Below are positions 274 to 22,907 of a DNA stretch of 37,045 nucleotides, one piece after another. Numbering within the stretch: position 1 is the stretch's first letter; each line of letters begins with the position of its first letter. This stretch comes from Nitrospira lenta (GTDB taxonomy: Bacteria; Nitrospirota; Nitrospiria; Nitrospirales; Nitrospiraceae). The notes below the pieces were generated by a model. The model saw only the letters and a list, made by a program, of their open reading frames with translations. It was not told the DNA's origin and did no database searches. Position numbers and translations under genes: made by a program. The DNA is taken from positions 1 through 37,045 of the forward strand of contig CAMDPZ010000018.1 in the NCBI GenBank assembly GCA_945905765.1, given 5' to 3'.

Positions 274-3200
274 ATGTTTTTTCAGACGCTACGGGTTTGT
301 GTCTCAACCCGCATGCTTAGCGCGATGGCGGCGGTGGCCCTTCTCGGGGCCCCGCTCGCATCCGCTGAGAATCCCTCACACATAGGGCAGCCAGCATTGC
401 AACATGTTGCGATGAACCACCAGCTGCCAGGCTGGGCGGAAAAGCTCAAGGGCCAGACGATCGTCGAAGATTCGATGGGCGGCAAGGCCGAGCGTTCCGC
501 GATGGTTGAACAGCAGCATCAGCGGATCATGGACCACATGGCCCAGGATCCTCAGGTGCAGGGCATCAACACCGGCATGTACAACACCTCCGCCATGATG
601 CACCAGTATGGCGCGGGTGGACAGGACATGCTCCTCGTGTCCGATCCCCGGGTCGAGCCGGTGGCGTTGACCGGCGGCGGGAAGTGCCCGGCTACGGCCC
701 CGGTGAAGCAGTACAATGTGTCCGCGATCAATGTCGAGATCACGCTGAACCAGTGGCTCGATTTCTATCCCGGCTACATGTATGTGCTGGACGAGAACCT
801 GGATAAGGTGCGCACCGAAGAAGCGACGAATAAGGCGGCGCGCGACAAGGAAGGCTTCGATCCCGGAGCCATCATCCCGGGCGTGCAGGCCCAGTGGATT
901 CAGCCCTTGACGATTCGCGCCAACCAGGGCGATTGCGTCAAGATCAAGCTCTCCAACAAGTTGGAAGAGGGCAGCGGCTCGGTCAGCTTGCATATCCATG
1001 GATCGAGCATGGTCGTGAGCGCCACCGGCGCAGCGGCCACGACGACCAATACCGATTCCATCGTCGAAGAAAAGAAGAGCGGCGAGTTCGAGTGGTACAT
1101 CCACCCGAACACCCAGGAAGGCGTCCGCCAGTTCCACACCTACAGCCAGGATCGTGAGCTGACGGTGATGGGCATGTTCGGATCCTTCATCGTCGAACCC
1201 CGCGGTTCGTCCTATTGGGAAGCCCTTGGCAGCGGCGCCGTGACCCCGGCCTCCAGCGGCTGGCAGGTCATGATCAAGAACGGCACCGGTCCTGACTTCC
1301 GTGAATTCGTGCTCTACTACCACGAAGTCGGCGACGAAGCGTTCCGTCCGTTGAACAAAAAAGGGGACTTCCTCCCGCAGCGCGATCCTCTGACCGATGC
1401 CTACCGTCCCGGTGGCCGCGCGATCAACTATCGCAGCGAGCCGTTCGGCATCAATAACATGCATGTGCAGCACGAGTACTTCGGCTTCGAAGACGAGTCG
1501 ATGGGCTACAGCTCCTATACGTTCGGCGATCCGTCGCCGACGATTCCCCGTTCCTACATCGGTGACCCGGCCAAGTTCCGCCTGGTCCACGGTGGATCGG
1601 AAGTCTTCCACTCGCACCATCCCCATGGTGGCACCATCCGGTGGCCGCGCAGCCCGCGGGCGATCGATGACATGAACCTCTGGGCCACGGCCGTGAACGG
1701 CCCGGTCAAGTATCCCGTGATTCGCGCCAAGACCGACCGGGTTGACGTCGAAGTCATCGGGCCTTCAGAAGCCCTCGATTTGGAGACGGAGTGCGGTTCC
1801 GGTCTTTGTCAGCAGTTGGCCGGCGATTTCCTCTTCCATTGCCACGTCGCGCACCATTATGTGGCGGGTATGTGGGGCTACTGGCGCGTGTACAACACGA
1901 TCCAGCAGGGCGATCTTCGGAACGACGTGATGCCGGACCTTCAGGAATTGCCGGACCGCAAGGGCCGGATCAAGACCCCGGTGTCGTCGGACAAGCTGGT
2001 CGGCCAGACGGTCGATTGGTTCGGCAAGCAGTTCACGATCACGGACAAGGGTAAGAGCAATTGGACCACCAACCCTGCGACCATCACGGTCAAGGATTGG
2101 GTCGCGATGCAGATGCCCACCATGGGCAAGCCTGGCCACAAAGACGACGAGAAGGGCCAGACCATTTCGTATGACGCAACCGTGTTGGATTGGGCCTGGG
2201 ATGGCAATCGTGCGTTGAGCGAGCGCGAGAGCACGATCGACAATCCCAAGTACAAGTCCACGCATCCTGGCAAACGCCATCCGATCATGTTCGAGGCGAT
2301 GACGGGCAAAGTGGCCTGGCCGCACCTGACGCCGCATTTCGGCCGTCGGGTGATGTTTTCCCCGAACCACGTCGGCGCGCCTTGGTTGGAGATGATCCGC
2401 CGGGACGCGAACGGCGAGGAGAGCACCGATCAGGCGAAGCCTGGTGAGAACGGCGTCTGGAGCCTCTGTCCCGAGAATGCGGGACGGAAGAGCTATAACG
2501 TCCACTTCATCAAGTTGCCGATCAAGATCGCCAAGGCTCAGGGCAAGGAGCCGGCGGTGGTCGATCCGAACGGATTGATCTATGTGCTCCATGAAGAAGA
2601 AGCGGCCATTCGGGCCAATGACGATTTGAAGTATCCGTTGGTCGTCCGCGGCAACATCTACGATTGCCTGGATTGGACCCTGACGAGCGAGTGGGACGAC
2701 GACGACTACACGAACTTCCAGTCGTCGAAGATCAATACCCATTGGCATTTCCTCCAGTTCGACAACCAAGCGTCTGACGGCGTGATCACCGGTTTCTCGT
2801 ATGAGCAGTCGGTGCGTCCGTTCACGATGCTGGAGAAGAAGAACACGAAGGGGCTGCCGGTCCCGATGAACACGGTCATGACCGCATCGGTGAAAAAGGG
2901 CGCCACCTCGATTTCGGTGAAGAATGCCCGTCAGTACCACGTCGGGACGCTGATCCTCGTCGGCGCCGACAATGTGAAGGGCAACGAAGTCTCACGGATC
3001 AAGGCGATCAGCGGCAACACGATCACCTTGTCCAGCGGGTTGAAACATGATCACCCGGCGAACGACATCGTCACGGTGGAGTTCGTGCGTCAGCGGTTCT
3101 GGGTCGATGCGGACGTGGGCACCGTGTTTTGGCACGATCATGCGTTCGGCGCGACCACCTGGCCGCACGGCGGATTCGGGACCTTCATCGCCGAGCCGGT

Positions 3201-5139
3201 TGGCTCGACCTACCATGATCCGAAGACCGGGAAGATGATCCGGAGCGGTCCGATCGCGGACATCCGTACTGTCGAGCCGGTGGGCCATGGCGTGAACAAC
3301 AGCTTCCGTGAATTGATGGTGCAGTTGCACGACACCGTGCCGCACACCGTCAACATCGTGACCGCGGGTAATCCTCCTGGGCAGCCGATCGAAGTGGCGC
3401 TCGAAGCGGGGAAGACCGTGTCCTTCATGATGCCGGATAAGCTCTACATGACGCCGATGCCCTTCCTGAACGGTGGGACCCATACCACGGGAAGCGGTTT
3501 GAATTTCCGGGCGGCTCCGATCGCGCAGCGGTTGGCGACCAATCCGGATGTGTCGCAGGCTTTCAACAGCCAGATCCATGGCGATCCCTACACGCCGCTC
3601 TTGAGGGCGTATGTCGGCGATACGATGGTATTCCGGCTGTTGCATACCTTGATGAACGAGACGATGACCTGGACCCTGTCCGGCCATACGTTCTTGAGCG
3701 AGCGTTATGCGGGCGATGCGAATCGGAAGAGTTCGATGCACGTCGGCATTGCCGAGCGTTATGACCTTGTGGTGCCGCAAGCGGGCGGACCCCGGTTGCA
3801 AGCGGGTGACTACATCCACTTCAACGGCCGTTCCTCGAAGTTCTCCGAGGGTGGCTGGGGCATCATTCGCGTGTACGACAAGGACCAGGCCGACTTGAAG
3901 AAGTTGCCGGCCGGGTTCTCCATCAAGGGCGAAATCCCCAAGGCCTTGCCGGTCTGTCCGGCTGACGCTCCGGTGAAGAGTTTCAACGTGGTGGCCATGG
4001 ATTATCCGTCGATGAAGTTCAACGCGAAGGCGCCGGACTCCATCGAAGTGGACTTCGAGCGGAAGATTCAGATTAGCAACCCCGAGGCCAAGATCTACGC
4101 CTTGGAAGACGATGCCGCGAAGGTGGCAAGCGGTGCGCAACCGATGCCGCTCACGCTCCGCGTGAACGTCGGGGATTGCGTCAAAGTGCATCTGAAGAAC
4201 AAGATGAAGGAGAGCAAGGCCTCCTTCTCGGCCATCGGATTGGCCTTCGATCCGAAGGATTCGATGGGTATGAACGTCGGTAACAACCCGGGCGATCAGA
4301 CGATCGTCCCTGGCGCCGAGCGGACCTATACCTATTACGCGGACCCGTTCAACGGGGAAACGACGTCGTTGGTGTGGGACTGGGGCAACGTGATGGTCAA
4401 CCCGCGCAACGGGTTGTTCGGCGCGATTGTCGTGGGCCCGAAGGGATCCAAGTACCGGGATGCCAGGACTGGCGCAGATATCAGCAACAAGAACGCCTGG
4501 GCAGCCGATGTGATCATCGATCGCTCGGTGCCAGGGAACGAGATGCGTCCGAACTATCGCGACGTGGCCTTGTTCTTCCAGGACGAAGACAACATTATCG
4601 GCACGAGTTTCATGCCGTATGTGCAGAATGTTGCGGGCTTGACCGGCGTCAACTACCGGTCGGAACCGTACAAGTATCGCGAGGAGCAGGGTTGTTCGCT
4701 GGGCAAGATGTTCCAGCCTTGCAAAGCGGACAAGCCTGAAGACCCGTCCACTCCGCTCATCGAAGCGCATGCCGGCGATCCGGTGCGTATCCATGTGATC
4801 GGAGCGAGCAACGAGCAGAACGGAATGTTCAGCGTCGAAAAGCATGAGTGGCCGATCGAGCCCTTCATGCGCGGCGCGGACATGATCAGCGTGGTCGAGT
4901 TCTCCGGTTCGGAGACTCTCGATGCCTTCCTGCCCTCGGCCGGCGGTCCTTACCGTTTGCCGGGTGACTATGTGTACAGCAACCAGCGGTTGCCGTACTC
5001 CCAGTCCGGGCAGTGGGGCTATGTGCGGGTGCTGCCGTCCGGCGATACCCGCCTGCTGCCGTTGCATGGAGCGGGAGCCGGGATGAAGAGCGCGTCGGTT
5101 CAGCAACCGATGCAGATCATCCCAGTCTCAACGAAGTAA
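274..5139 (+). CDS. Giant secreted multicopper oxidase with three two-cupredoxin units
   Basis: ATG 274 follows AAGGAGG (260-266) at 7 bases. A signal peptide ends near ASA|EN (residues 31-32), so the 1621-aa protein is exported. Three repeat units each open with a CPxxA-x-K-x-[YF]NV motif, with Cys at 138, 732 and 1228. Copper motifs are split. Unit 1 has HIHG (240-243), a degraded second motif (H288, with Tyr where the second His belongs), an intact HxxHxH (446-451) and an intact HCHxxxHxxxGM (522-533). Unit 2 has HWH (823-825) and HDH (954-956) but lacks the last two motifs. Unit 3 has lost nearly all ligands. A working trinuclear centre therefore probably combines motifs 3-4 of unit 1 with motifs 1-2 of unit 2. 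The size recalls the manganese oxidases MnxG and MofA; ferroxidase or another metal oxidase is equally possible. Substrate unknown. Confidence 0.9.
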   Translation: MFFQTLRVCVSTRMLSAMAAVALLGAPLASAENPSHIGQPALQHVAMNHQLPGWAEKLKGQTIVEDSMGGKAERSAMVEQQHQRIMDHMAQDPQVQGINTGMYNTSAMMHQYGAGGQDMLLVSDPRVEPVALTGGGKCPATAPVKQYNVSAINVEITLNQWLDFYPGYMYVLDENLDKVRTEEATNKAARDKEGFDPGAIIPGVQAQWIQPLTIRANQGDCVKIKLSNKLEEGSGSVSLHIHGSSMVVSATGAAATTTNTDSIVEEKKSGEFEWYIHPNTQEGVRQFHTYSQDRELTVMGMFGSFIVEPRGSSYWEALGSGAVTPASSGWQVMIKNGTGPDFREFVLYYHEVGDEAFRPLNKKGDFLPQRDPLTDAYRPGGRAINYRSEPFGINNMHVQHEYFGFEDESMGYSSYTFGDPSPTIPRSYIGDPAKFRLVHGGSEVFHSHHPHGGTIRWPRSPRAIDDMNLWATAVNGPVKYPVIRAKTDRVDVEVIGPSEALDLETECGSGLCQQLAGDFLFHCHVAHHYVAGMWGYWRVYNTIQQGDLRNDVMPDLQELPDRKGRIKTPVSSDKLVGQTVDWFGKQFTITDKGKSNWTTNPATITVKDWVAMQMPTMGKPGHKDDEKGQTISYDATVLDWAWDGNRALSERESTIDNPKYKSTHPGKRHPIMFEAMTGKVAWPHLTPHFGRRVMFSPNHVGAPWLEMIRRDANGEESTDQAKPGENGVWSLCPENAGRKSYNVHFIKLPIKIAKAQGKEPAVVDPNGLIYVLHEEEAAIRANDDLKYPLVVRGNIYDCLDWTLTSEWDDDDYTNFQSSKINTHWHFLQFDNQASDGVITGFSYEQSVRPFTMLEKKNTKGLPVPMNTVMTASVKKGATSISVKNARQYHVGTLILVGADNVKGNEVSRIKAISGNTITLSSGLKHDHPANDIVTVEFVRQRFWVDADVGTVFWHDHAFGATTWPHGGFGTFIAEPVGSTYHDPKTGKMIRSGPIADIRTVEPVGHGVNNSFRELMVQLHDTVPHTVNIVTAGNPPGQPIEVALEAGKTVSFMMPDKLYMTPMPFLNGGTHTTGSGLNFRAAPIAQRLATNPDVSQAFNSQIHGDPYTPLLRAYVGDTMVFRLLHTLMNETMTWTLSGHTFLSERYAGDANRKSSMHVGIAERYDLVVPQAGGPRLQAGDYIHFNGRSSKFSEGGWGIIRVYDKDQADLKKLPAGFSIKGEIPKALPVCPADAPVKSFNVVAMDYPSMKFNAKAPDSIEVDFERKIQISNPEAKIYALEDDAAKVASGAQPMPLTLRVNVGDCVKVHLKNKMKESKASFSAIGLAFDPKDSMGMNVGNNPGDQTIVPGAERTYTYYADPFNGETTSLVWDWGNVMVNPRNGLFGAIVVGPKGSKYRDARTGADISNKNAWAADVIIDRSVPGNEMRPNYRDVALFFQDEDNIIGTSFMPYVQNVAGLTGVNYRSEPYKYREEQGCSLGKMFQPCKADKPEDPSTPLIEAHAGDPVRIHVIGASNEQNGMFSVEKHEWPIEPFMRGADMISVVEFSGSETLDAFLPSAGGPYRLPGDYVYSNQRLPYSQSGQWGYVRVLPSGDTRLLPLHGAGAGMKSASVQQPMQIIPVSTK

Positions 5140-5265: not shown

Positions 5266-6210
5266 GTGAGCCAGTCTATGATTCGAGCAGCCTGTCGTAG
5301 GGCGGCAGTTGGCGCGGCGGTTATTTTCTCTCTCCTGTCCCTGGAGACCGTCGCCTGGTCCTCCTACGATGTGATTGACGTTGAGCATGGTGGGATGATC
5401 CAAGGAACGATTCTGCTCGATGGCGCAGTGCCGGAACCGAAGGGGTTCAACCTCATTACCTTTCCCGACCCGGCCTATTGCGGGCGAATCTCGAACGGTC
5501 GAGGCTGGCGTCTGCTCCATGATTTCGTGGTCGGACCCCAGCATGAGCTGAAAGACGCGATCGTTTTTCTGGAAGGGGTCGAGGCAGGCAAACCTTTCGA
5601 GCTGTCTGTCCCCTTGATCGAAGCCAGGGATTGCCAGTTCGTTCCCTTCATGACCATCGTGCGGAACGGCCATGCGGTGGAAGTGATCAATATGGATCCG
5701 GTGATGCACGATATCCAAGGTTACGAGACCTCGTTGGAAGCAGGGGCGCGGACCCTGTTCAATACGCCGCTCGTGATGAATCATCAACACCGCCGCGGGG
5801 ATCTTCACGCGCAGCACAACCATGCGCCGGGCAAGTCGCTGGTCGGGCCGATGTATTTGAATCGAGGGCGGCGGACCTTCTATATGCAATGCGGTTTCCA
5901 CGCCTACATGGAAAGTTGGGCGATGGCGGTCAATAATCCCTACTATGCGCTGACCGATTCGAACGGCAAGTTTGCGATCGAGCAGATCCCGCCTGGCACC
6001 TACCAGCTGGTGGTTTGGCATCCCCAGACCGGCCCTGGCGTCACCAAGACGGTCACGGTTCAGCCGGATGGCAAGCTGGTCGAGCAATTGTCGCTTTTCG
6101 CTCCGAAGGGGGGCCGCTCCGCCTTCAAAGTGGTGGACAATCCCCGCTTCGGTCCCGACACGATGGGCTATTCAGTCGATATCCAGCCGCTCGTCGAGCA
6201 TCAACACTAA
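5266..6210 (+). CDS. Secreted amicyanin-like copper-motif protein with C-terminal carboxypeptidase-regulatory-like domain
   Basis: The GTG at 5266 is chosen because GGAGGAGG (5253-5260) lies 5 bases upstream and because longer frames would run through the terminator. The 314-aa product has an N-terminal signal or anchor (residues about 5-31), then a beta-rich region. A late motif C209-x2-H212-x2-M215, with an earlier His148 in a VMHD context, fits a type 1 copper site. The C-x2-H-x2-M spacing is that of amicyanin (Cys92, His95, Met98). A His-rich stretch (about 173-188) precedes it. The last 90 residues resemble a carboxypeptidase-regulatory-like beta sandwich (G-K-F-x-I-x2-[IV]-P-x-G-x-Y). 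It is a diverged paralogue of the product of 8672-9466. Probably periplasmic electron transfer or copper handling; no biochemical function can be assigned from sequence. Confidence 0.8.
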   Translation: MSQSMIRAACRRAAVGAAVIFSLLSLETVAWSSYDVIDVEHGGMIQGTILLDGAVPEPKGFNLITFPDPAYCGRISNGRGWRLLHDFVVGPQHELKDAIVFLEGVEAGKPFELSVPLIEARDCQFVPFMTIVRNGHAVEVINMDPVMHDIQGYETSLEAGARTLFNTPLVMNHQHRRGDLHAQHNHAPGKSLVGPMYLNRGRRTFYMQCGFHAYMESWAMAVNNPYYALTDSNGKFAIEQIPPGTYQLVVWHPQTGPGVTKTVTVQPDGKLVEQLSLFAPKGGRSAFKVVDNPRFGPDTMGYSVDIQPLVEHQH

Positions 6211-6421: not shown

Positions 6422-7066
6422 ATGTTCATTAAACTAGGGTCGGGCAAGGTCTGCAGTTGGGGGCTCTGCTTCTGGCTTGCCCTCTGGCTTGGGCAGGAGA
6501 GTCCTTCCTCCTATGCGGCGGCTGACGATGCTGCTATCCCTTCGGTCGAGTTCTCCGGTTCGCTGATTAAGACCGTCAAAGGGAAGCGCTATCAGGCGCA
6601 AGTCTTTGCGAAGGGGGATCGGTTGCGGCTGGAGTATAAGTATGCGCTTAAAACCGAGCGTGGGTACTCGGCGATTGAAATCATTCGGCTCGATAAGTCG
6701 GAGACCTGGTATCTGCTGGCGCAGTCAAAGGAACTGTTGGTGACAGGGCTGGACTCTGATGATTTGCTGCCGGTGAGCCCGGTCTTACCGGGAGAGCGGG
6801 AACGAGTTCTGGTCGGCGATGCGACGGCGGCTGGTCGTGCGGCCCAGTTGTTCGAGGTTCAGACAGACCACCAGGGCAGGGTCGAGCGGTTCTATGAGTG
6901 GGTGGATGCGGAAACCGGCGTGGTCTTGAAGCTCGTCAGTCGGGATCGGGAGTGGTCGTTTGAGTATGAACGGTTTAGACTGTCGCCGCAGCCTGCCTAT
7001 TATTTTGACGAGCCACCAGGATATAAAAAACGTATAGCGGCGACTGCGCCGAGAGGACGGGGGTAG
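6422..7066 (+). CDS. Small secreted protein, LolA/outer-membrane-lipoprotein-sorting-like beta fold
   Basis: 214 aa with an N-terminal signal segment (about 10-34, Ala-rich end). The mature part is a run of amphipathic beta strands: 'F-S-G-x-[LV]-x-K-T-x-[KR]-G' followed by 'L-R-L-E-Y', an IxRLDK-x-TWYLL segment and a C-terminal 'E-[YF]-x-W-V-D-x-x-T-G-[VL]-x-L-K' stretch. This pattern is typical of LolA-like or DUF4412-like periplasmic proteins that bind hydrophobic ligands. No lipobox is obvious. The ribosome-binding site is weak. The next gene starts 4 bases after the stop, so the two are co-transcribed. Function not established. Confidence 0.72.
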   Translation: MFIKLGSGKVCSWGLCFWLALWLGQESPSSYAAADDAAIPSVEFSGSLIKTVKGKRYQAQVFAKGDRLRLEYKYALKTERGYSAIEIIRLDKSETWYLLAQSKELLVTGLDSDDLLPVSPVLPGERERVLVGDATAAGRAAQLFEVQTDHQGRVERFYEWVDAETGVVLKLVSRDREWSFEYERFRLSPQPAYYFDEPPGYKKRIAATAPRGRG

Positions 7067-7070
7067 AGCG

Positions 7071-8447
7071 ATGATGGGTGATGTGATGAGGTGCAGGCGT
7101 TCGTGCCGGGTGAATCTGCTTGCCGCAGTGGCGGTGGCCTACGTTTCTCTTTGGAGTGGACCTGGCCATGCCGGAACGGCATCGGTGCCCAAGGCGGCGC
7201 AAGAGGCCTTCGAGAAGAAAGACTATGCTCAGGTACTCGAACAGCTGGCCAAGCTGGAGAAGGACCAGGCTGCAACGCCTGACGTGCGCCGTCTCAAGAT
7301 CCGCTCGTTGCTTAAGCTCGGCAATCCCAAAGATGCACTCGGCGAGTACGACAAGCTGGAGCTCGCGCTGAAGCAAGACGACTTGCCTCTCCTGCGGGAG
7401 GTGGCGATGGGATTCATCGTCGTCATGGTGAAGGACATGCGCGATCAAATGCGCGGGGCTGCCTATACCGCGCTGAAAGAAGTGGATTCGGACGAGACGA
7501 TTCCCTATTTCGAAGATGGCTTGAGCGATGGGTCCGGGCCGGTCCGGGTGCTCGCGGTCGAGGGGCTCGGTCGATCCGAGGCCGGACGGAAATCGATGAA
7601 ACTGCGCGGGGCCATCGAGGATCAAGCCGGATTGGTGAAAGCGCGGGTCGTGAAGGCGCTTGGCAAAACGGGAGACCTTGGCGTGTTGCCGATCATTGAA
7701 GCGGCGACGAAAGACGAGTTGAGCACGGTTCGTATCGCGGCCTATAGCGCCTTGATTAGGCTTGGCAGGAAAGAGGCCTGGACGCAATTGCAGCAGGCGG
7801 CCGAGTCGCTGAATCCGGAGGATCGAGCCGACGCCATTCGCACGATCGTCGATTTGAACGACCAGCGTGGCGTCCCCCTCATGATCGAGTCGTTAACGTA
7901 TAAACAGCCCTCTGTGCGCGGCGCTGCCGCTCGCGGGTTGGGGCATCTCGGACGGAAAGAGGTGCGGGGGCAAATCGAGCAGCTTCTGAAAGATCCGATC
8001 CCCGGCGTGCGCGAATCGGCAATCGGGAGCTTGGCGGACATGGGGGGGACGGAATCGGTGCCGGCCATCACCAAGGCGCTCGGCGACGGCAGTTTTACGG
8101 TCCGCGCCTCGGCAATTGCCGCCTTGCTTCAGCTGGGCCAACCCTATCGGACTGTGGCGCCCACGGCGCAAGCGCTGGCTCAGCAGAATGATACGGCGAT
8201 GCGGGCGTCCGTCGCCTATGCCCTGGGGAAGGCGACCAAGCCTAACGTGTTCGATGCTATCGCCCTGTTGACCAGTTTGACGGCTGATCCGCTTCCCGGT
8301 CCTAAGATTGTCGCCATTCGCTCCCTTGGGCATGTGGGGGACCGTGAGCTGATTCCCCTCATGAAGGAAGCGCTGCACGACACGAATGACGCGGTGAGGG
8401 CCACCGCGGCAGGGGCCCTCTTGCACCTGCTTCAACTCAAGAAATAG
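7071..8447 (+). CDS. Secreted HEAT-repeat protein
   Basis: 458 aa. A signal peptide (about 12-34, ending GHA) is followed by a short helical TPR-like region (about 38-110: 'A-x-K-A-x-Q-x-A-F-x-K-K-D-Y'). Then come about ten HEAT-like repeats to the C terminus, recognised by recurring 'V-R-x-x-A-[AV]-x-[AG]-L-[GI]-x-[LM]-G' and 'I-P-x-[LI]' units, as in the PBS-lyase HEAT family. Such proteins are scaffolds. Position between two copper-motif proteins suggests a role in assembling or docking an extracytoplasmic complex, which is inference. Several ATGs cluster at the start (7071, 7074, 7083); the first is used here. Confidence 0.85.
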   Translation: MMGDVMRCRRSCRVNLLAAVAVAYVSLWSGPGHAGTASVPKAAQEAFEKKDYAQVLEQLAKLEKDQAATPDVRRLKIRSLLKLGNPKDALGEYDKLELALKQDDLPLLREVAMGFIVVMVKDMRDQMRGAAYTALKEVDSDETIPYFEDGLSDGSGPVRVLAVEGLGRSEAGRKSMKLRGAIEDQAGLVKARVVKALGKTGDLGVLPIIEAATKDELSTVRIAAYSALIRLGRKEAWTQLQQAAESLNPEDRADAIRTIVDLNDQRGVPLMIESLTYKQPSVRGAAARGLGHLGRKEVRGQIEQLLKDPIPGVRESAIGSLADMGGTESVPAITKALGDGSFTVRASAIAALLQLGQPYRTVAPTAQALAQQNDTAMRASVAYALGKATKPNVFDAIALLTSLTADPLPGPKIVAIRSLGHVGDRELIPLMKEALHDTNDAVRATAAGALLHLLQLKK

Positions 8448-8671: not shown

Positions 8672-9466
8672 ATGAAGAGTGCGTTGTCAGTCATATTGGG
8701 CGTGGCAGCCGTCGCGTTTGTCGCGGCGCCTTTCACTGCGTTTGCAGGCGGCAGCATTTCCGGCAAGGTGACCTTTGCTGGAAAGTCTGAGCAGAGGGAG
8801 TTTTCCTTCGCGAAGTTCCCGAACCCGAAGTTTTGCGTGAAGAACCCCAACAAGGCCTTGATGGATGGCGACAAGCGCTTCTTCAAGACCGTTGAAGTCG
8901 CCAAGGATGGCGGACTCAAGGGCGCGGTCGTGGCCGTGGTCGATGTCGAAGACAAGGCCTTCGTCGATGCCTACACGGGCACCGAAGTCGTGGCGGAGTT
9001 CTGCGAGTTCCTCCCGTTCACCGGTGTGGTCGTGAACAACAAGTCCTTCAAGGTTGAGAACCATGACGCAGACGCCGATGACCCAAAGTCGGTCCAGGGC
9101 GTGTTGCACAATCCGCATAGCTTCGTGGTGAAGGGCTCCAGCTCGGCCACCGGTTTCAACATCGGTTTGGCCAAGAAGGGCGACAAGCTCGACAAGCCAG
9201 TGGTGTTCCGTGGCGGCGCAGAGAAGGAAGGTTTTTATCGTTTACAGTGCGACCAGCATGAGTTCATGCAGGGCTTCTACCTGCCGGTGACGAATGCCTA
9301 CTTCGCCGTGGCGAAGGAAGATGGTTCGTTCGAGATCAAGGGCGTGCCGGCCGGCAAGCACAAAGTTGTGGCCTGGCATCCGTTCGCAGCCAAGGGCAAG
9401 AAGGTTGAATTTGACGTGGATGTGACCGAAGGCGGGACGGCCACGCTCAAGGCTGAAATCAAGTAA
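8672..9466 (+). CDS. Secreted amicyanin-like copper-motif protein (paralogue of 5266-6210)
   Basis: 264 aa; ATG 8672 follows AAGGAGG (8659-8665). The signal peptide ends AFA|GG near residue 25. The N-terminal part 'GG-x-I-x-G-x-[IV]-x-[FL]-x-G' and an F-P-[DN]-P-x-[YF]-C segment align with the other copper-motif protein. C193-x2-H196-x2-M199, with His146 and His149 upstream, is a candidate type 1 copper site with amicyanin spacing. The C-terminal 60 residues form a carboxypeptidase-regulatory-like domain with the 'W-H-P' motif shared with the paralogue. Lysine-rich, with regular codon use and a strong RBS, promoter and terminator, so probably abundant. Single-gene transcript. Electron transfer is an inference from the motif. 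Confidence 0.82.
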   Translation: MKSALSVILGVAAVAFVAAPFTAFAGGSISGKVTFAGKSEQREFSFAKFPNPKFCVKNPNKALMDGDKRFFKTVEVAKDGGLKGAVVAVVDVEDKAFVDAYTGTEVVAEFCEFLPFTGVVVNNKSFKVENHDADADDPKSVQGVLHNPHSFVVKGSSSATGFNIGLAKKGDKLDKPVVFRGGAEKEGFYRLQCDQHEFMQGFYLPVTNAYFAVAKEDGSFEIKGVPAGKHKVVAWHPFAAKGKKVEFDVDVTEGGTATLKAEIK

Positions 9467-9565: not shown

Positions 9566-9595
9566 TTGCCTTTCACTTTCTGAACTGGGTAAGAT
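9566..9595 (+). promoter_or_regulatory. Possible promoter of the 9.6-17.8 kb operon
   Basis: TTGCCT (9566-9571), 18 bases, TAAGAT (9590-9595). If real, transcription starts near 9602, after the ATG at 9594, so the methyltransferase must start at 9615 or 9633. No other likely promoter is visible between the terminator and the gene. Confidence 0.4.
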
Positions 9596-9632
9596 GCCGG
9601 GTTTTCTGCTCAAAATGCTTGAAAGGGGTCCT

Positions 9633-10622
9633 GTGTCACGGGAATTGTCGCTCGCGGAAATCTTTCAGCTGGGGTACTACTGGGAGACCAAGATTCTTTT
9701 GACTGCCGTCCGGCTGGATGTGTTTTCCGCATTGGATGGGAAGCGGAAGACCCTTTCGGAAGTGGCTGCTCGCCTGGGCGCCCATGAGCAGACATTGGAA
9801 CTGTTGTTAAATGCTCTCGTCGCGATGCGACTCTTGGATAAGGACGGGGATTCGTACGGAAATTCGACTGCCGCTGCCACGCATCTGGTCCGCAATTCGC
9901 CCAAATATATCGGTCACTTGCTCCTGCTGCACGATGCGGAATGGGAGAACTGGGGCAAGCTGGAGCAGACGATTCGCACGGGGCAGCGATTGGTTGACCG
10001 GCATGTCTTCGAGACAGATCCTGAGTTAGGCACCAATGTATTGGCAGTCCTTCATCGGATCGGGCAGCAGAGCGGGCCTGATTTCGCCAAGCGGCTGCAG
10101 CTGAGCGGGCCGGTTCGGCTCTTGGATTTAGGCGGAGGAGCCGGGACCAACGCGATTGCCTTCTGCCAGGCCTATCCTGAGCTGACCGCGACCGTGTTCG
10201 ATTTGCCTGCAACGCTTCGACTGACGGAACGAACGGTGAAAGAGGCAGGGTTGGAATCGAGGATTAACCTGCTCCCAGGCGATTTCAATAAGGATGGACT
10301 CGGCGGGCCCTACGATGTGGCCCTCATGTCCGACATCCTGCACTATCAAGACTTTTCGACGAACGCCGCATTGGTAAAGAGGGTGCTGGCCCATTTGGCG
10401 CCGGGCGGCCGGTTGGTGATCAAGGATCGATTCTTAAATGAAGCAGGCACCGGTCCTGCCTGGACCACCGCCTTTGCGGTCCATATTCTGGTGAACACGG
10501 AACGGGGCGGCTGCTACAAGACGACCGATGCGATGCAGTGGATGAGGGACGCAGGCTTTGCGGCCGTGACGGAGTTGGAGCCTTCAGCAGCGGTGCAGGG
10601 GACGAAGTCCGGTCAGTCCTAA
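9633..10622 (+). CDS. SAM-dependent O-methyltransferase (family 2 type, with N-terminal dimerisation domain)
   Basis: 329 aa from GTG 9633 (AAAGGGG at 9622-9628). In-frame ATGs at 9594 and 9615 are possible, but the likely -10 box overlaps 9594. The N-terminal 90 residues form a winged-helix dimerisation domain ('L-S-E-V-A-A-R-L-G', 'L-L-N-A-L'), followed by the class I fold: SAM motif I 'LLDLGGGAGTNA', then 'T-V-F-D-L-P', 'L-M-S-D-I-L-H' and 'L-A-P-G-G-R-L-V-I-K-D'. This arrangement is typical of small-molecule O-methyltransferases (hydroxyneurosporene/acetylserotonin types). The substrate is unknown. It is the first gene of a tight gene string that includes bd-like oxidase 1, so a quinone-like or heme-related substrate is conceivable but unproven. 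Confidence 0.85.
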   Translation: MSRELSLAEIFQLGYYWETKILLTAVRLDVFSALDGKRKTLSEVAARLGAHEQTLELLLNALVAMRLLDKDGDSYGNSTAAATHLVRNSPKYIGHLLLLHDAEWENWGKLEQTIRTGQRLVDRHVFETDPELGTNVLAVLHRIGQQSGPDFAKRLQLSGPVRLLDLGGGAGTNAIAFCQAYPELTATVFDLPATLRLTERTVKEAGLESRINLLPGDFNKDGLGGPYDVALMSDILHYQDFSTNAALVKRVLAHLAPGGRLVIKDRFLNEAGTGPAWTTAFAVHILVNTERGGCYKTTDAMQWMRDAGFAAVTELEPSAAVQGTKSGQS

Positions 10623-10647
10623 CGGCGAATGTGCGGCAAGGAGTCTC

Positions 10648-11364
10648 ATGCTTGAATGGCTGAAACAGCCCGGTTTTTTTGGCACCCACGCCACGGTCGG
10701 GGCGGACATGAGTCAGCTCATGGCGACATTTTTCACAGGGCTCTTCGTGATTGGCTGGATCCAGGCGCGGAGACGCCGGGCTGATGCCCACCATTGGATG
10801 ATGCTGGGCGGGATGATCGCCATGGTGGCCTTCTTCATGAGCTACTATTTATTCCGCCAATTGGGCGTGTTGGCCTTTGAGGGGAAGGAAGGCTTTGGCG
10901 GGTCGCAGGCCCTCTACGATTATGTCTTCATTCCTGTCCTCACGTTGCACATCGTGCTGGTCATTCTTGGATTGATCATGGCGATTTACATGATCGTGCT
11001 GGGCTTCCGCTCTCAACAAGTCGTCGATGGGGCCAGATCGCTTAAGGAAGCGCTGCTGCTGACGACCTGGAGGAAGGTCGGGCTGGTCTTCGGCAGCCTG
11101 ACCGCGCTAGTGATGCTCTTGTTCTTTTCGCGCGTCGCGACCGCCGGTTTCTCTATGCGGAAATTCGAAGTCTATCTGAGCCTGTTGCTGCTGATCGCCA
11201 TTGTGTTCTCGGTCGAGATGACGATCCAGCGGATCTGGCCGAACGGTGCGCGCCGCCATCGGGCGCTCGGCTTGTTCACGATGGTGATCTATTGCGTTCT
11301 GTTTCTGACCGGCACCACGACTTATACGATGCTCTATCTTTTGTATCCGGGAAAGATCGGATGA
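10648..11364 (+). CDS. DUF420-like polytopic membrane protein, possible oxidase assembly factor
   Basis: 238 aa, ATG after AAGGAG. Six or so membrane segments (about 20-38, 48-68, 93-118, 142-162, 174-192, 206-228). The N-terminal 'GFFGTHA' and 'AD-x-S-Q-L', the His-rich loop 'ADAHHWMM', 'LHI' in the third span and the C-terminal R-R-H-R-A-L-G segment followed by 'TGTTTYTMLYLLYP' match the layout of DUF420 proteins. Characterised members (CtaM-type) are needed for heme-copper oxidase maturation. Its place a few genes upstream of a bd-like oxidase fits an assembly role, by inference. Longer than typical DUF420 proteins because of an inserted loop around residues 120-140. Confidence 0.65.
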   Translation: MLEWLKQPGFFGTHATVGADMSQLMATFFTGLFVIGWIQARRRRADAHHWMMLGGMIAMVAFFMSYYLFRQLGVLAFEGKEGFGGSQALYDYVFIPVLTLHIVLVILGLIMAIYMIVLGFRSQQVVDGARSLKEALLLTTWRKVGLVFGSLTALVMLLFFSRVATAGFSMRKFEVYLSLLLLIAIVFSVEMTIQRIWPNGARRHRALGLFTMVIYCVLFLTGTTTYTMLYLLYPGKIG

Positions 11365-11395
11365 CGCAAGAAGTGCTGAGATTTGAGGCCCCGTC

Positions 11396-11896
11396 ATGCT
11401 GACTTGCGGCTGTGGTCGCTGGATGCATACAGAGGGGATTGAAGAACGGTCCTATGATGATGGGCCGCCCCAGTGGTTCATTCGAACGGAATGTCGCGGC
11501 TGCGGCTTGAAGGTCGGCATCGATGTCCCGGCCGGCCAAGCTGGCGGGCTCGTTGATCGAATGATGTGGACCGATGATGCGCTGCATCGGCTGGATCGCA
11601 TGCCTCCGTACCTTGCGCCGTTATTCCGTGCGGAGGTGGAGCAGGATGTGCGGACCAGAGGCGAGCGTGTGATCGCCTATGACACGTTGCTTCGACCGAG
11701 GACCGGCGAACGGATTGAGTGGGAGCCTGAAGCGGAACGTCGCTTGGAGCGGGTGCCGGCGCCGGTCCGTGCCATGGCCCGCATTGAGCTGGAGCGAACC
11801 GTGGCAGATCGCGGCGAGACACTCATCACTGTCGCGCTGATGGAAGAAGTGAAGGCGCGTTATTTTGGAATGGCCGCGCAGAAGAGTGATGGGTGA
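11396..11896 (+). CDS. Zinc-ribbon protein with two PCP_red-type helical domains
   Basis: 166 aa. An N-terminal ribbon with C4, C6, C33 and C36 (CxC...CxxC) probably binds zinc. Two related helical segments follow: 'W-T-D-D-A-L-x-R-L-D-R-M-P' (about 60-100) and 'W-x-P-E-A-E-R-R-L-E-R-V-P' (about 110-160). The second matches the PCP_red domain also found at the C terminus of light-independent protochlorophyllide reductase subunit B ('P-x-x-V-R-x-x-[AV]-R-x-x-[IL]-E', 'G-x-x-x-I-T'). There is no photosynthesis here; stand-alone PCP_red proteins occur in many non-phototrophs with unknown function. The stop codon lies inside an inverted repeat (11884-11964). Confidence 0.68.
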   Translation: MLTCGCGRWMHTEGIEERSYDDGPPQWFIRTECRGCGLKVGIDVPAGQAGGLVDRMMWTDDALHRLDRMPPYLAPLFRAEVEQDVRTRGERVIAYDTLLRPRTGERIEWEPEAERRLERVPAPVRAMARIELERTVADRGETLITVALMEEVKARYFGMAAQKSDG

Positions 11897-11964
11897 TCGG
11901 TGATGCGTGACGAGCGAAGAGGGTCGTGCGTTTCCCGATACGGTTCACGGTTCACCCATCACTC
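11884..11964 (+). repeat. Inverted repeat overlapping the stop codon of the PCP_red gene
   Basis: Left arm 11884-11903 and right arm 11945-11964 are reverse complements at 18 of 20 positions (GAGTGATGGGTGA core), with a 41-base loop. The left arm encodes the last codons and TGA of the upstream gene. Further GTGATG/GTGACG units around it give a simple-repeat character. No T-tract follows, so it is more likely a dispersed palindromic repeat than a terminator. Confidence 0.6.
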
Positions 11965-11979
11965 GTCACTGGAGTTGTA

Positions 11980-13029
11980 ATGTTGCATCGAATGGCATTG
12001 CGAGTCTTGCCCAGCCTGAGCTTGGCTGTCACGGAAGACTCGGTGCGCAAGCAGAAGCGGATTGTTATGTTTGTGCCGGGGCTGGTGGCCTTCGTGGTCT
12101 ATCGGCTGGCCAAGCTGTTTCTGCCTTTGTCCGAACCGATCGTCTTGTTGCTGGTCAGCGGGCTGGTTGCGGTGGTCACCTCGTTGCTTGCCTATCGCGT
12201 CGGTCGCGCCGCTGGCTGGGGGACGATCTTTCGAGAGGACAGGAGCCGTTTGTTGCTCTGGCTTGGAGGCTGGATCGGGTTTGTCTATGGGGTTCAGTTG
12301 TCCTTGCTGGTGCTGGCTCTGCTCTGGCTTGTCGGCTATGGCTATCTGCAACATCCGGATGGGCCTGCCATGATGGCGATCATTATTTCCTGCACGGCTG
12401 TGGCGCGCGACGCCTTTGAGATCGGGCATGTAAGGAAAGTGGCACTCCTGGGCCGTCCCTTTCCGACGTTTCCCGATGGACTGGCCCTCCGTACGATGGT
12501 CGGCAGTCATGCGCTGGAATTGGCGCCTTGGGTCGCAGTTGGTCTCATCATTGGGGCATTGGGCGCCTCGCTGGGACACCTCGTCGAGGCGAGCCAGGGA
12601 GCGGCCTTGGTCCAGTTGGCTTCTGTATCGGTGTTGGGGGGGCTGGTCTCTCTCTGTGCCTACTTTGGCGGGCTTCGTCCCAACTCGTCATGGACCCAAG
12701 GGCTGTTCCAGACGAAGGCGGGCGAATTGCTGAAATATTGGTGGTGGCCGGGACTCGCCTTTGCCGCGACCTACTATCTAGTGGCGGCCGGGTGTGTGCT
12801 GTTCCTCTTGAGGCAGCCTGGTATCCCTACTGTCTATGCGATGGCCAGTGGCGGATTCGTGACCGGCATGATGGCTCTGTATTGTTACTATCTGGGGTTT
12901 CGCCGGCAGGTTGAAGAACAGCAGGGCCAGACGATGTCGAGCGCTTTGCTTCGCTGTCCCTTCGTCATGGGAATCCTTGGCAAGTCATCTGGTGCGGGCG
13001 TCTCCATGACGGCCAGTTCGAAGGTATAA
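11980..13029 (+). CDS. Polytopic membrane protein of unknown function
   Basis: 349 aa from ATG 11980, which has GGAG at 11971-11974; an upstream ATG at 11926 would lie in the repeat. About nine hydrophobic segments: roughly 30-47, 52-72, 88-110, 112-130, 180-200, 212-235, 255-275, 282-300 and 310-330 (approximate). The segment R-D-A-F-E-I-G-H-V-R-K in the cytoplasmic loop near 143-153 is charged and distinctive. I do not recognise a named family. The gene sits 4 bases before bd-like oxidase 1 and is translated with it, so a role in that oxidase's assembly or function is the natural guess. Confidence 0.75.
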   Translation: MLHRMALRVLPSLSLAVTEDSVRKQKRIVMFVPGLVAFVVYRLAKLFLPLSEPIVLLLVSGLVAVVTSLLAYRVGRAAGWGTIFREDRSRLLLWLGGWIGFVYGVQLSLLVLALLWLVGYGYLQHPDGPAMMAIIISCTAVARDAFEIGHVRKVALLGRPFPTFPDGLALRTMVGSHALELAPWVAVGLIIGALGASLGHLVEASQGAALVQLASVSVLGGLVSLCAYFGGLRPNSSWTQGLFQTKAGELLKYWWWPGLAFAATYYLVAAGCVLFLLRQPGIPTVYAMASGGFVTGMMALYCYYLGFRRQVEEQQGQTMSSALLRCPFVMGILGKSSGAGVSMTASSKV

Positions 13030-13033
13030 GCCT

Positions 13034-14905
13034 ATGGATATGAAGAAGCGAACATCCGGTGTTGTGTGGCTCTCTCTCCTCCTGTTGGTGGTGTTGTCCG
13101 CCGCATGGATTGGCTGGGGTCTTCAGAGTCAGGCCTTTGCCGAGGAGAGCGCCGACCTCTATTTCAAAACGCCTGGAACTCCCGTCGGGCCTCCGGCCCC
13201 TTCTCCCCAAGAGACGGTCTATTCGCGCATCGGATCGTTCGATAGCCGATTGCTCGTCTGGTTCGTGACGCAGCAACATACCTACTTCGGCGGGTTCGTC
13301 CTTGCTCTGCCGATTTTCTGTGTCCTGCTGGAGTTCTTGGGTTTGAGCAGCAGAAAGCCGTCGCTGGCCCTTCGCTATGATGGCCTTGCGCGGGATTTAG
13401 CCAAAGTGGCGCTGCTGGCCCTGTCTGTGACCGCGGTGGTCGGGAGCCTCATGCTGGGGATGTTTATCTGGTTCTATCCCAGCTTCATGAAGTATATGGG
13501 CGGGACGTTTAAGTCCTTTATGCCGTTGTATGCGATCGTGTTTGTCGGGGAATCGCTGCTGCTCATCCTCTATTACTACAGCTGGAACCGGTTGGCTGTG
13601 CCATCGCTGAAGTGGGTCCATGCCTCGATCGGCGTGTTGACCAATCTGTTCGGGGCCGCATTGCTGTTCCTGGCGAATTCTTGGTCTGCCTTCATGATGG
13701 CGCCGGCCGGCATCGATGCGCAGGGGCGGTTTCTGGGGAACGGATGGCATTTGCTCCATTCGGCTCTCTGGAATCCCTTGAATGTCCATCGGTTCCTGGC
13801 CGATATCATGTCCGGCGGGGCGGTGGTCCTGGCCTATGCCTGCTATCGTTTCTTCACCAGCAAGACCGACGAAGAGCGCGCCTATTTCGACTGGGTGGGC
13901 TATGTCTTTTTGTTTGTCACGGTCTGCGCGCTCTTGCCGATGCCCTTTGCCGGCTATTGGTTAATGAGGTCGGTCTATGCCTTCAGTCAGAGCATGGGCG
14001 TGACGATGATGGGCGGCCTGCTCACCTGGCTCTTCGTGGTACAGGCCCTCTTGATCGGCGCTCTTTTTCTTGGCGTGAATTATTATCTCTGGCAGAGCAT
14101 GGCGCGCCTCCGCGGAGGGGAACGGTATCAGCCCTATTATCAGTCGCTGCTGGCGGTGCTGATGTTGGCCCTCTTTATTTGGCTGACGCCGCATACGGTC
14201 ATGATGTCGGGCAGCGAAGTGAAGGCGATGGGCGGTTCGTCGCACCCCGTGGTCGGCAACTATGGCGTGATGTCGGCGAAGAACGGCGCAGTCAATATTT
14301 TGATCCTGGTGACCACCCTGAGTTTCATCTACTATCGGCGCGCCAATCGCACAATGGTCGTATCCTGGGTCAAGCAGGGGAACCTCCTTATCGGGGCGCT
14401 GTTCCTGCTGGGCTCTATCAATATTATTTATCTTTCGGTCTATGGATTCTATTTGCCGGCGAAACTCCGCGTCGGATTGTCGTCGCCGCAGGCTGTAACC
14501 ACCTTGACGGTGCTAGTGGTCGGGCTGGTGATCAATCGTATGATGCTCAAGGGAGCGCTCGTTCATGGGCCGGTCCAATGGGGGAAGATTTCTGTCAGGG
14601 GCATGGTGGGCCTCTTCGGATTGGCTGCCGCCTTCTCCTGGGTCATGGGTCTCATGGGTTATATCCGCTCTTCCGGGCGGTTGGCCTGGCATGTGAGTGA
14701 GGTGATGGCCGATGTGTCGCCCTGGGCCTTTACGCCGGACTTTGCCTTTGCGGCGAAGATGGTGACGCTCAACATGGTGATCTTTTGGGGTGCGGTCTTT
14801 GCGCTCTTCTGGATGTGCCAGCGCGATCAGTTGCCGGTGATGGAGGAAGAGTTGGCCGAGGGGGCTGCGCCGGTCCTGGCTCCTTCGTCGTCGCAAGAAG
14901 CATGA
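13034..14905 (+). CDS. Cytochrome bd-like oxidase subunit, paralogue 1
   Basis: 623 aa, about 14 membrane spans, preceded by an N-terminal signal-like span (10-32) and a periplasmic stretch with 'DLYFKTPGTPVG'. Comparison with E. coli CydA (from memory) gives: H82 in 'TQQHTY' matches heme ligand H19; E173 in 'FVGES' matches E107; 'FLANSWSAFMMAPAG' matches the ANxWMQ-P-G helix; H252 in 'LNVHRF' matches H186; M413 in 'NYGVMSAKNG' matches M393. CydA's E99 is not conserved. The GRQPW signature is replaced by 'GYIRSSGRLAWHV'. No cydB is found. Long stand-alone bd-like oxidases of this kind are known in Nitrospira and have been proposed as terminal oxidases; the electron donor (quinol or cytochrome c) is open. 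Paralogous to 18467-20380. Confidence 0.85.
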   Translation: MDMKKRTSGVVWLSLLLLVVLSAAWIGWGLQSQAFAEESADLYFKTPGTPVGPPAPSPQETVYSRIGSFDSRLLVWFVTQQHTYFGGFVLALPIFCVLLEFLGLSSRKPSLALRYDGLARDLAKVALLALSVTAVVGSLMLGMFIWFYPSFMKYMGGTFKSFMPLYAIVFVGESLLLILYYYSWNRLAVPSLKWVHASIGVLTNLFGAALLFLANSWSAFMMAPAGIDAQGRFLGNGWHLLHSALWNPLNVHRFLADIMSGGAVVLAYACYRFFTSKTDEERAYFDWVGYVFLFVTVCALLPMPFAGYWLMRSVYAFSQSMGVTMMGGLLTWLFVVQALLIGALFLGVNYYLWQSMARLRGGERYQPYYQSLLAVLMLALFIWLTPHTVMMSGSEVKAMGGSSHPVVGNYGVMSAKNGAVNILILVTTLSFIYYRRANRTMVVSWVKQGNLLIGALFLLGSINIIYLSVYGFYLPAKLRVGLSSPQAVTTLTVLVVGLVINRMMLKGALVHGPVQWGKISVRGMVGLFGLAAAFSWVMGLMGYIRSSGRLAWHVSEVMADVSPWAFTPDFAFAAKMVTLNMVIFWGAVFALFWMCQRDQLPVMEEELAEGAAPVLAPSSSQEA

Positions 14906-14924: not shown

Positions 14925-15581
14925 ATGAATCGAGGGGTGATGATCCAGAGGTATCTCGCAGTCTGGCTGGTGCTCTGCGGAAGTTTCATGATGCAGGGTG
15001 CGGTCTCGGCCCAAAGTCAATCCTTGGTCTTGGAGGATTTCCAGGCGAAAGAAACAGACGGGTTCCCCTCGAATTGGGACCATGAGAATCAGCGGAGCCA
15101 TTCCAAGGGGCGCGATGCCTATAAGATCCAGACTGAAAACGGCGTGAACTTTCTGGCGGCGAAGGATGCGGGGCAGCGGATCAAGAAAAAGAAGATCGAT
15201 TGGGATCCGAAGGCCTTTCCGGTCCTTACCTGGCGCTGGCGATTGAATAAGGCCGCGGCGGGAATTGAGCCGATCGCGGCGATCTATGCCTCGCTGGATA
15301 CGGATTTGATGTTCATCCCCGTCTTTACGAAGTATATCTGGAGCGCCACCAAGCCTGAGGGGGTGCTGAGCGAGGGGGGCATGTTCAGCGGCGCGGAGAT
15401 CGTGGTCCAGAGCGGCACCAAGGATGTCGGGCAATGGGTTGAAGAGCGAGTCAACGTCTATGAAGACTTCAAGCGGATCCACAAACATGAGCCGGCTGCC
15501 AAGGCCTGGGGTATTTCCATCATTGCCGGGCCTGGCGTCGAAATCGATTTCGGTTCACTGGTTGCCAGCGCAGGACGCTAG
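14925..15581 (+). CDS. Secreted DUF3047 family protein
   Basis: 218 aa with signal peptide (about 8-28, ending VSA|QS). The mature protein opens with 'L-V-L-E-D-F-Q' and contains '[12 protein letters not shown]', 'A-A-I-Y-A-S' and '[11 protein letters not shown]', the usual DUF3047 landmarks; these proteins are periplasmic, beta-sandwich and uncharacterised. The conserved 'D' in the usual 'DD-x-A' segment is shifted here, so it is a divergent member. Starts 19 bases after the bd-like oxidase stop and is probably in the same operon. Confidence 0.75.
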
Positions 15582-15601
15582 GGCAATGGAGTGTAGTTAG
15601 C

Positions 15602-16000
15602 ATGGCCGAATCCGGCACGGAACAAGATTGGTCGATGAAGGTGCCCGATATCCTATTCGGTGTGGCCGTGATGGGGACCGTCGGGACGCTTATCGGGGTC
15701 ATCATGGGAGGCGGCATCCTGCCGGTTGCGAGCGGGGCAGGGCTCCTGCTTGGCGGGGTCATCGGCCTGATGGGTGGACGACGTTTCCTGGTGAGTATTT
15801 TGGTGGGGACAGTGCTGGGCGGACTGTTGGCCTGGTTCATTGCCGGGCCGGAGCGAATATCCGTGGGCGCCGGGGCCGGCGCCGCCATGGGCGGATTTCT
15901 CGGGGTGCAGATCTCGATGCTGCTGGATATGCGCGCGGCCAAGAAGGCCGCATCTGAATCGGCTGATTCCTCCGTGTCACGCACAACTGAAGGAGCCTGA
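15602..16000 (+). CDS. Small glycine-rich membrane protein
   Basis: 132 aa. Three to four short hydrophobic spans (about 15-40, 42-57, 60-80, 88-108) rich in GxxxG and GG pairs, like glycine-zipper proteins, with hydrophilic tails (C-terminal '[14 protein letters not shown]'). No family recognised. GGAG lies upstream of the ATG, and the gene is packed 20 bases after the DUF3047 gene and 6 bases before the next gene. Confidence 0.7.
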
Positions 16001-16006
16001 GGCGCG

Positions 16007-16933: not shown

Positions 16934-16938
16934 CAGAC

Positions 16939-21776: not shown

Positions 21777-21819
21777 TCTTGTCTGTCTACCTCTTTTGTT
21801 GAGCAAAGGGAGTTCGCCG

Positions 21820-22857: not shown

Positions 22858-22907
22858 TCGTTCACGGGAATTGACAGCCAACCTGGATTTACGACATGAG
22901 GGAAACC

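Follow-up and report, generated by a model that had tools for sequence, protein, structure and literature searches.

The multicopper oxidase gene and its domain layout

The window, i.e., the whole stretch of 37,045 nucleotides that was analyzed, covers positions 1 to 37,045 of contig CAMDPZ010000018.1 of the Nitrospira lenta assembly GCA_945905765.1. At its start lies a single open frame with an ATG start codon, which encodes a giant multicopper oxidase; it is followed by a cupredoxin gene (CUP1) and, further downstream, by a cluster containing cytochrome bd-like oxidases. The N-terminal stretch of the oxidase, ending in APLASA, looks by eye like a Sec signal. The features of the oxidase gene are as follows.

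274..5139, plus strand: six-domain multicopper oxidase, 1621 amino acids (aa), probably exported (open frame, family and ligand evidence)
1609..1626, plus strand: copper motif 3, H446-S-H-H449-P-H451, in domain 2 (H446 for the type 1 copper, H449 and H451 for the trinuclear center)
1837..1872, plus strand: copper motif 4, H522-C523-H524...H528...M533, in domain 2 (from aligned homologues)
2740..2748, plus strand: copper motif 1, H823-W-H825, in domain 3 (from aligned homologues)
2860..3084, plus strand: small beta-domain insert separating motifs 1 and 2 (roughly aa 863-937)
3133..3141, plus strand: copper motif 2, H954-D-H956, in domain 3 (from aligned homologues)

The initial annotation, made from the letters alone, had described three repeat units starting with a CPxxA motif. 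CPxxA was found only at Cys 138, 732, and 1228, once at each unit start, and the three two-domain units were mutually homologous in BLASTP (E 7e-9 for units 1 and 2, 1e-19 for 1 and 3, 2e-15 for 2 and 3). A second Cys in each unit (221, 798, and 1302) was kept in 83 or 84 of 84 aligned homologues, and its conservation suggests one disulfide per unit. Two Pfam multicopper oxidase families scored above their cut-offs. The best NCBIfam family was MnxG (NF041487, E 3.2e-41), with 140 bits against a cut-off of 3100, far below the equivalog level, and the best PDB sequence match was MnxG of Bacillus sp. PL-12 (MnxEFG, entry 9bxa, E 1.8e-80). The proposal that the protein is nearer to MnxG than to laccases was thus supported. 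The N-terminal region, at about aa 80-112, was rich in Met and His.

The twelve copper ligands are conserved and divided between domains 2 and 3

HxxHxH occurred once in the oxidase (H446, H449, and H451), and HCH also once (H522, C523, and H524), followed by H528 and M533. Together with H823, H825, H954, and H956, all twelve expected copper ligands were present, motifs 3 and 4 in domain 2 and motifs 1 and 2 in domain 3, and none of the twelve varied across the 84 aligned homologues, all from the class. This alignment took sequences of at least 1500 aa (84 of 88 distinct matches); 48 rows were of the window's own type (at least 80% identity), and 23 were under 60%.

The motif contents ascribed to units 1 and 2 in the initial annotation stand, with corrections. 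Motif 2 of unit 1, described there as broken, reads H288-T-Y290 in the window protein, but 25 of the 84 rows carry His at position 290, and in five of the 25 position 288 is Arg. Unit 1 also retains a motif 1 (H240-I-H242), which had gone unmentioned. Unit 3, called almost free of ligands, contained none of the four motifs. Since domain 6 showed neither motif 3 nor motif 4 in the 14 rows displayed, no second trinuclear site is expected. The trinuclear ligands are divided between domains 2 and 3, and the only type 1 site is that of domain 2; this is the arrangement of prokaryotic six-domain (MnxG-type) oxidases as we defined it from PMC3600357. The proposal in the initial annotation of one trinuclear center, formed between units 1 and 2, was judged correct.

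A fold of domains 1-4 was predicted from a 35-row alignment, one row of which (L126) reads X over motif 4, probably from N in the contig. The mean predicted local distance difference test score was 57, and domain 2 was poor. Both Foldseek and VIA ranked MnxG 9bxa first for this model. VIA aligned it to MnxG 421-1217, i.e., one unit out of register, and no geometric conclusion was drawn.

Comparison with MnxG and other oxidases

MnxG also carries motifs 3 and 4 in domain 2 and motifs 1 and 2 in domain 3. Motif 4 and motifs 1 and 2 of the window oxidase aligned collinearly with it, and motif 3 aligned with MnxG H281/H284/H286 (counted by hand). H528 aligned with MnxG residue 340 (also a hand count), which is Ala in 9bxa; because that entry is titled 'Mnx H340A', residue 340 was taken as the type 1 His. 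The axial Met of the type 1 site is shared as well. A plasmid search gave 17 records, and five were fetched for comparison (Streptomyces, Priestia, Halalkalicoccus, Rubrobacter, and Hymenobacter, from four other phyla). The five relatives showed the same split between domains 2 and 3. They and MnxG keep every trinuclear ligand, the type 1 His of 9bxa being the engineered Ala, and among the five only the axial Met varied (Phe in Rubrobacter). A published analysis of 2013 reported motifs 3-4 followed by 1-2 in all bacterial six-domain oxidases analyzed there (PMC3600357).

Because MnxG, the five relatives, and that analysis all show this order, it is the norm of the family. The view in the initial annotation that the order is unusual or permuted was accordingly not upheld, and a permuted or novel active site was rejected. 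The case that it had named against itself, close homologues in which a single unit carries all four motifs, was contradicted by the 84 homologues and the five relatives. Three-domain laccases and CueO have motifs 1-2 at the N-terminus and motifs 3-4 at the C-terminus; in the window oxidase the set runs 3-4 then 1-2, in three two-domain units. It is also unlike ceruloplasmin and other chordate six-domain blue proteins, whose trinuclear center lies between domains 1 and 6 (PMC3600357), as its ligands are in domains 2 and 3 and both motif 3 and motif 4 are missing from domain 6.

Several features set the window oxidase apart from MnxG. It is longer (1621 versus 1227 aa), has the conserved Cys pair in each unit, and carries the inserted domain in domain 3. 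In its type 1 loop, compared with that of Priestia MnxG, His replaces Phe at 448, Glu replaces Lys at 443, and two residues (GG) are inserted. Its neighbor is a cupredoxin gene, and weak tests showed no MnxE/MnxF-like gene. Mnx activity depends on MnxE and MnxF, according to the literature. No open reading frame of the window or of neighboring stretches matched either of the small Priestia genes that precede MnxG and are called MnxE and MnxF here by position, in a comparison without positive control; the one just upstream of Priestia mnxG also had no match in the window's own genome, a weak test again without positive control. In the mnx-like set on the Priestia megaterium plasmid (L101, 3695-8738), a pair of small genes is accompanied by the MnxG-type oxidase and by a gene that overlaps the oxidase end; copC lies upstream.

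The insert of domain 3 is a phage-tail-type domain, with no significant PDB match by sequence (best E 0.058). In another family of the same order (L089, 11980-17133), the match to the window protein was split near aa 915 within a longer frame, and the inserted region seems, from these sequences, to be longer in some members of that family. The window oxidase is a distinct branch of a known kind, and it is real, intact, and conserved. A multicopper oxidase of this kind with its gene cluster was already noted in Nitrospira and Nitrospina in the 2013 literature. The protein reported from Nitrospina gracilis and from Ca. Nitrospira defluvii (PMC3578206) probably belongs to the same family.

Distribution and paralogues

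Among class genomes of at least 90% completeness, 184 of 185 contained an oxidase match at E 1e-50 or better. Within the genus the match was found in 31 of 32 genomes. A phylum-wide draw at E 1e-10 gave matches in 76 of 197 genomes, 74 of them in the class and two, weak ones (E 2.7e-11 and 3.0e-23), outside it. All 24 class genomes outside the window's order matched, 18 with two or more matched places, although pieces of one gene may count twice, as in G191.

Several paralogous types coexist within the genus and were separated in a tree of 43 rows, whose outgroup part has long branches and was not used. They are labeled here by their approximate identity to the window protein (the window type, and about 74%, 67%, 55%, and 53%), and the window's own genome holds a second copy at 68% identity. 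A contig scan for relatives gave 553, of which the best 80 (78 loci) were kept. These best 80 included the Ca. N. defluvii copies, and all were titled Nitrospira, Nitrospirae, Nitrospirota, or similar, in agreement with the Nitrospira-like host supposed in the initial annotation; no distant named relatives were among them. None of 67 pattern matches on viral contigs was a relative of the oxidase. The AMO family had no match in the window's own genome, but its control matched nowhere either, so this result is uninformative. According to PMC9040806, GTDB places Nitrospirales and the order of the Mn-oxidizing Ca. Manganitrophaceae in one class, and two multicopper oxidases are present per Ca. Manganitrophaceae genome; these are presumably the copies of the family found here.

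Two paralogues outside the cluster, of the 67% (L035, 9966-14532) and 55% (L041, 15266-19901) types, were preceded by regulator-like and histidine-kinase-like open reading frames, which resemble those at the far end of the window. Judging from these neighbors, such paralogues may be inducible.

CUP1 and the bd-like oxidase cluster

Downstream of the oxidase, the following genes were annotated.

5278..6210, plus strand: CUP1, plastocyanin-like cupredoxin with a carboxypeptidase-regulatory-like domain (presumed start codon)
6422..8447, plus strand: protein without Pfam match (6422-7066) and HEAT-repeat protein (7071-8447)
8672..9466, plus strand: CUP2, second CxxHxxM protein with a carboxypeptidase-regulatory-like domain (putative cupredoxin-like, by motif)
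9594..13029, plus strand: BchU-like methyltransferase, DUF420 protein, PCP_red protein, and protein without Pfam match
13034..14905, plus strand: cytochrome bd-like oxidase 1
14925..17817, plus strand: DUF3047 protein, small protein without Pfam match, and two FGE/SUMF-domain proteins
18467..20380, plus strand: cytochrome bd-like oxidase 2
20463..24683, plus strand: two cytochrome c genes and a third gene whose product combines a heme-b domain with a pair of cytochrome c stretches, probably alt-NxrC

CUP1 has the type 1 copper ligands H144, C205, H208, and M211 and a plastocyanin-like fold. Its gene was found downstream of 66 of 83 oxidase copies, and in class members outside the window's order it adjoined, or nearly adjoined, 11 of 12 copies (hand count). 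The heme-b domain of the putative alt-NxrC is of the DMSO reductase type II gamma/EB_dh kind, with TIGR03477 below its cut-off. In make-up, the window cluster resembles the alt-NxrC/bd-like cluster of N. moscoviensis, which is among the 40 most transcribed genes of that organism (PMC6606698). The cluster described for Nitrospina gracilis and Ca. N. defluvii (bd-like oxidase, cupredoxins, and cytochromes c) is probably of the same kind; it includes a multicopper oxidase resembling that of Bacillus SG-1, and copper carriers were suggested for it (PMC3578206).

We compared by hand the places of CUP2 matches of at least 74% identity in the genus (30 loci); an oxidase was counted as upstream if it lay no more than 25 kb away on that contig and had the same strand. 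Seven loci with no oxidase on the contig and a short or unknown upstream side were left out (G012 C315, G015 C263, G017 C259, G022 C19, G023 C494, G024 C257, and G030 C5). An oxidase lay upstream of CUP2 in 21 of the 23 decidable loci, and a bd-like gene was on the same contig in 18 of these 21 (on another contig in G011, G021, and G031). The cluster was headed by the window type in nine genomes (G000, G001, G007, G011, G021, G026, G027, G028, and G029), by the 53% type in five (G002, G008, G016, G018, and G019), and by the 53% and 55% types in tandem in three (G004, G009, and G010). Other tandems were 53% with window type (G005) and window with 67% type (G020), and oxidase fragments at 52-59% stood there in G006 and G031. 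Beyond the genus, the same place held the window type in G119 and G157 and the 74% type in G197. Since different paralogues head the same cluster, it seems to matter more that an oxidase occupies this place than which paralogue does so.

In the PMC literature (subscription papers not covered), we found no report of the class-wide presence of this oxidase, the downstream pairing with CUP1, the paralogue swapping at one bd-like cluster, or the phage-tail-type insert in domain 3. No paper on PDB 9bxa was found there either. Four points are expected to last: that the oxidase is conserved throughout the class, that it is paired with a cupredoxin, that a domain is inserted in it, and that paralogues are exchanged at one cluster.

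Possible functions of the oxidase

In multicopper oxidases, electrons enter at the type 1 copper and O2 is reduced at the trinuclear center. The best explanation of the data, and a probable one, is that the gene encodes an active six-domain oxidase of MnxG architecture, which would work with CUP1 at a bd-like/cytochrome c cluster of nitrite oxidation. The type 1 copper in domain 2 would be reduced by a donor located periplasmically and pass the electrons through Cys523 and its flanking His residues to the trinuclear center between domains 2 and 3, where O2 would be reduced to water. CUP1 would most likely be the partner, either carrying electrons to or from the oxidase or handling its copper; this partnership, which we infer from the recurrent gene pair, is the best supported of the new proposals. 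In Nitrospira, the two proteins would serve the periplasmic side of the cluster. Candidate substrates are a reduced cupredoxin, Cu(I), Mn(II), and Fe(II).

Several observations weigh against this explanation. The copper-site geometry rests on alignment to the solved homologue because the predicted fold is poor. Close relatives are over-represented among the scanned loci, since only the best 80 of 553 were kept. CUP1 was not downstream of 17 of the 83 oxidase copies, and CUP2 had no oxidase upstream at G003 C20 (150 kb of upstream sequence) and G022 C107 (18 kb). Many copies lie outside the cluster, and the 62-80% types are mostly elsewhere: among copies whose downstream sequence extends 7.9 kb or more, 13 of 19 of the window type had CUP2 or the methyltransferase nearby, as did one of 13 at 70-80%, one of 19 at 62-70%, and nine of 17 below 62%. 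A bd-like gene was within 15 kb of two of 19 copies with at least 11 kb downstream, and in other orders of the class none was visible in the stretches examined. Gene neighborhood is not proof of interaction.

The alternatives differ mainly in the electron donor. It is rather unlikely that the protein is a soluble terminal oxidase or electron valve, fed directly by CUP1 that is itself reduced from the cytochrome c/NXR side. The place of the oxidase upstream of CUP2 in the genus loci, mostly with a bd-like gene on the contig, the high transcription of the N. moscoviensis cluster (PMC6606698), and the suggested copper carriers (PMC3578206) are consistent with it. On the other hand, the G003 C20 and G022 C107 loci lack the oxidase, class members of other orders have no visible bd-like neighbor, and the genome holds a paralogue elsewhere. 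Reduction of O2 in the periplasm conserves little or no energy, which also weighs against this role. A Cu(I) oxidase or copper-handling protein that supplies and protects the copper proteins of the periplasm would agree with a copper protein as partner and with the Met/His-rich N-terminal region, and four of the five plasmid relatives lie near copC (Streptomyces and Priestia) or metal-transport genes (Rubrobacter and Hymenobacter). However, the Halalkalicoccus relative has no such neighbor in the stretch shown, the Met/His pattern is only partly kept between subfamilies, and a Pfam scan of 17 window open reading frames gave no match to copper exporters or copper regulators; we consider this role unlikely.

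A Mn(II) oxidase, whose periplasmic Mn(III)/Mn(IV) would protect against superoxide or supply energy, is suggested by MnxG being the closest solved relative. Mn(III)-based superoxide defense was proposed by Luecker in 2013 (PMC3578206) and Mn oxidation as an energy source for sand-filter Nitrospira in 2025 (PMC12070406); moreover, the family occurs in class members beyond the window's order, and the class includes Ca. Manganitrophaceae (PMC9040806). The MnxG model score far below the cut-off, the type 1 loop unlike that of Priestia MnxG, and the failure to find MnxE/MnxF-like genes in the weak tests on window and neighboring frames and, for one gene, the own genome, argue against it. Near-universality in the class would also be unlike a Mn-specific trait, and we regard Mn(II) oxidation as possible but unlikely. 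Less probable still is a joint function of oxidase and cupredoxin in which electrons of a reduced metal, including Mn(II), go from the type 1 copper to the cupredoxin instead of, or besides, to O2; if true, metal-derived electrons would enter the respiratory chain via the cupredoxin. A degraded, inactive copy with motifs surviving by chance could be suspected from the domains other than 2 and 3, which have no full motif sets. With twelve ligands invariant in 84 of 84 homologues, an open frame, and matches in 184 of 185 class genomes, it is extremely improbable and was rejected on ligand conservation.

In work on drinking-water filters it is asked whether nitrifying Nitrospira oxidize Mn, and the finding of MnxG in their genomes was cited in support (PMC12070406). 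The function of such oxidases in nitrifiers was said to await experimental verification (PMC11995701). The gene cited in support likely belongs to the family of the window oxidase. If so, its presence would say little specific about Mn, because the family is a class-wide core with its own branch, a non-MnxG loop, and its own cupredoxin. The analysis also points to CUP1 as a partner candidate and to a possible electron route for Mn-oxidizing relatives.

Additional observations

In the genomes of the two CUP2 loci without an upstream oxidase (G003 and G022), oxidases were present on other contigs. The methyltransferase, DUF420, and PCP_red genes (9594-11896) stand between the oxidase module and the bd-like oxidase, in an order kept in several genomes, and they might act together in modifying a tetrapyrrole or heme for the bd-like oxidases. 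The FGE/SUMF pair is adjacent (16007-17817), and similar genes were found near several oxidase paralogues elsewhere.
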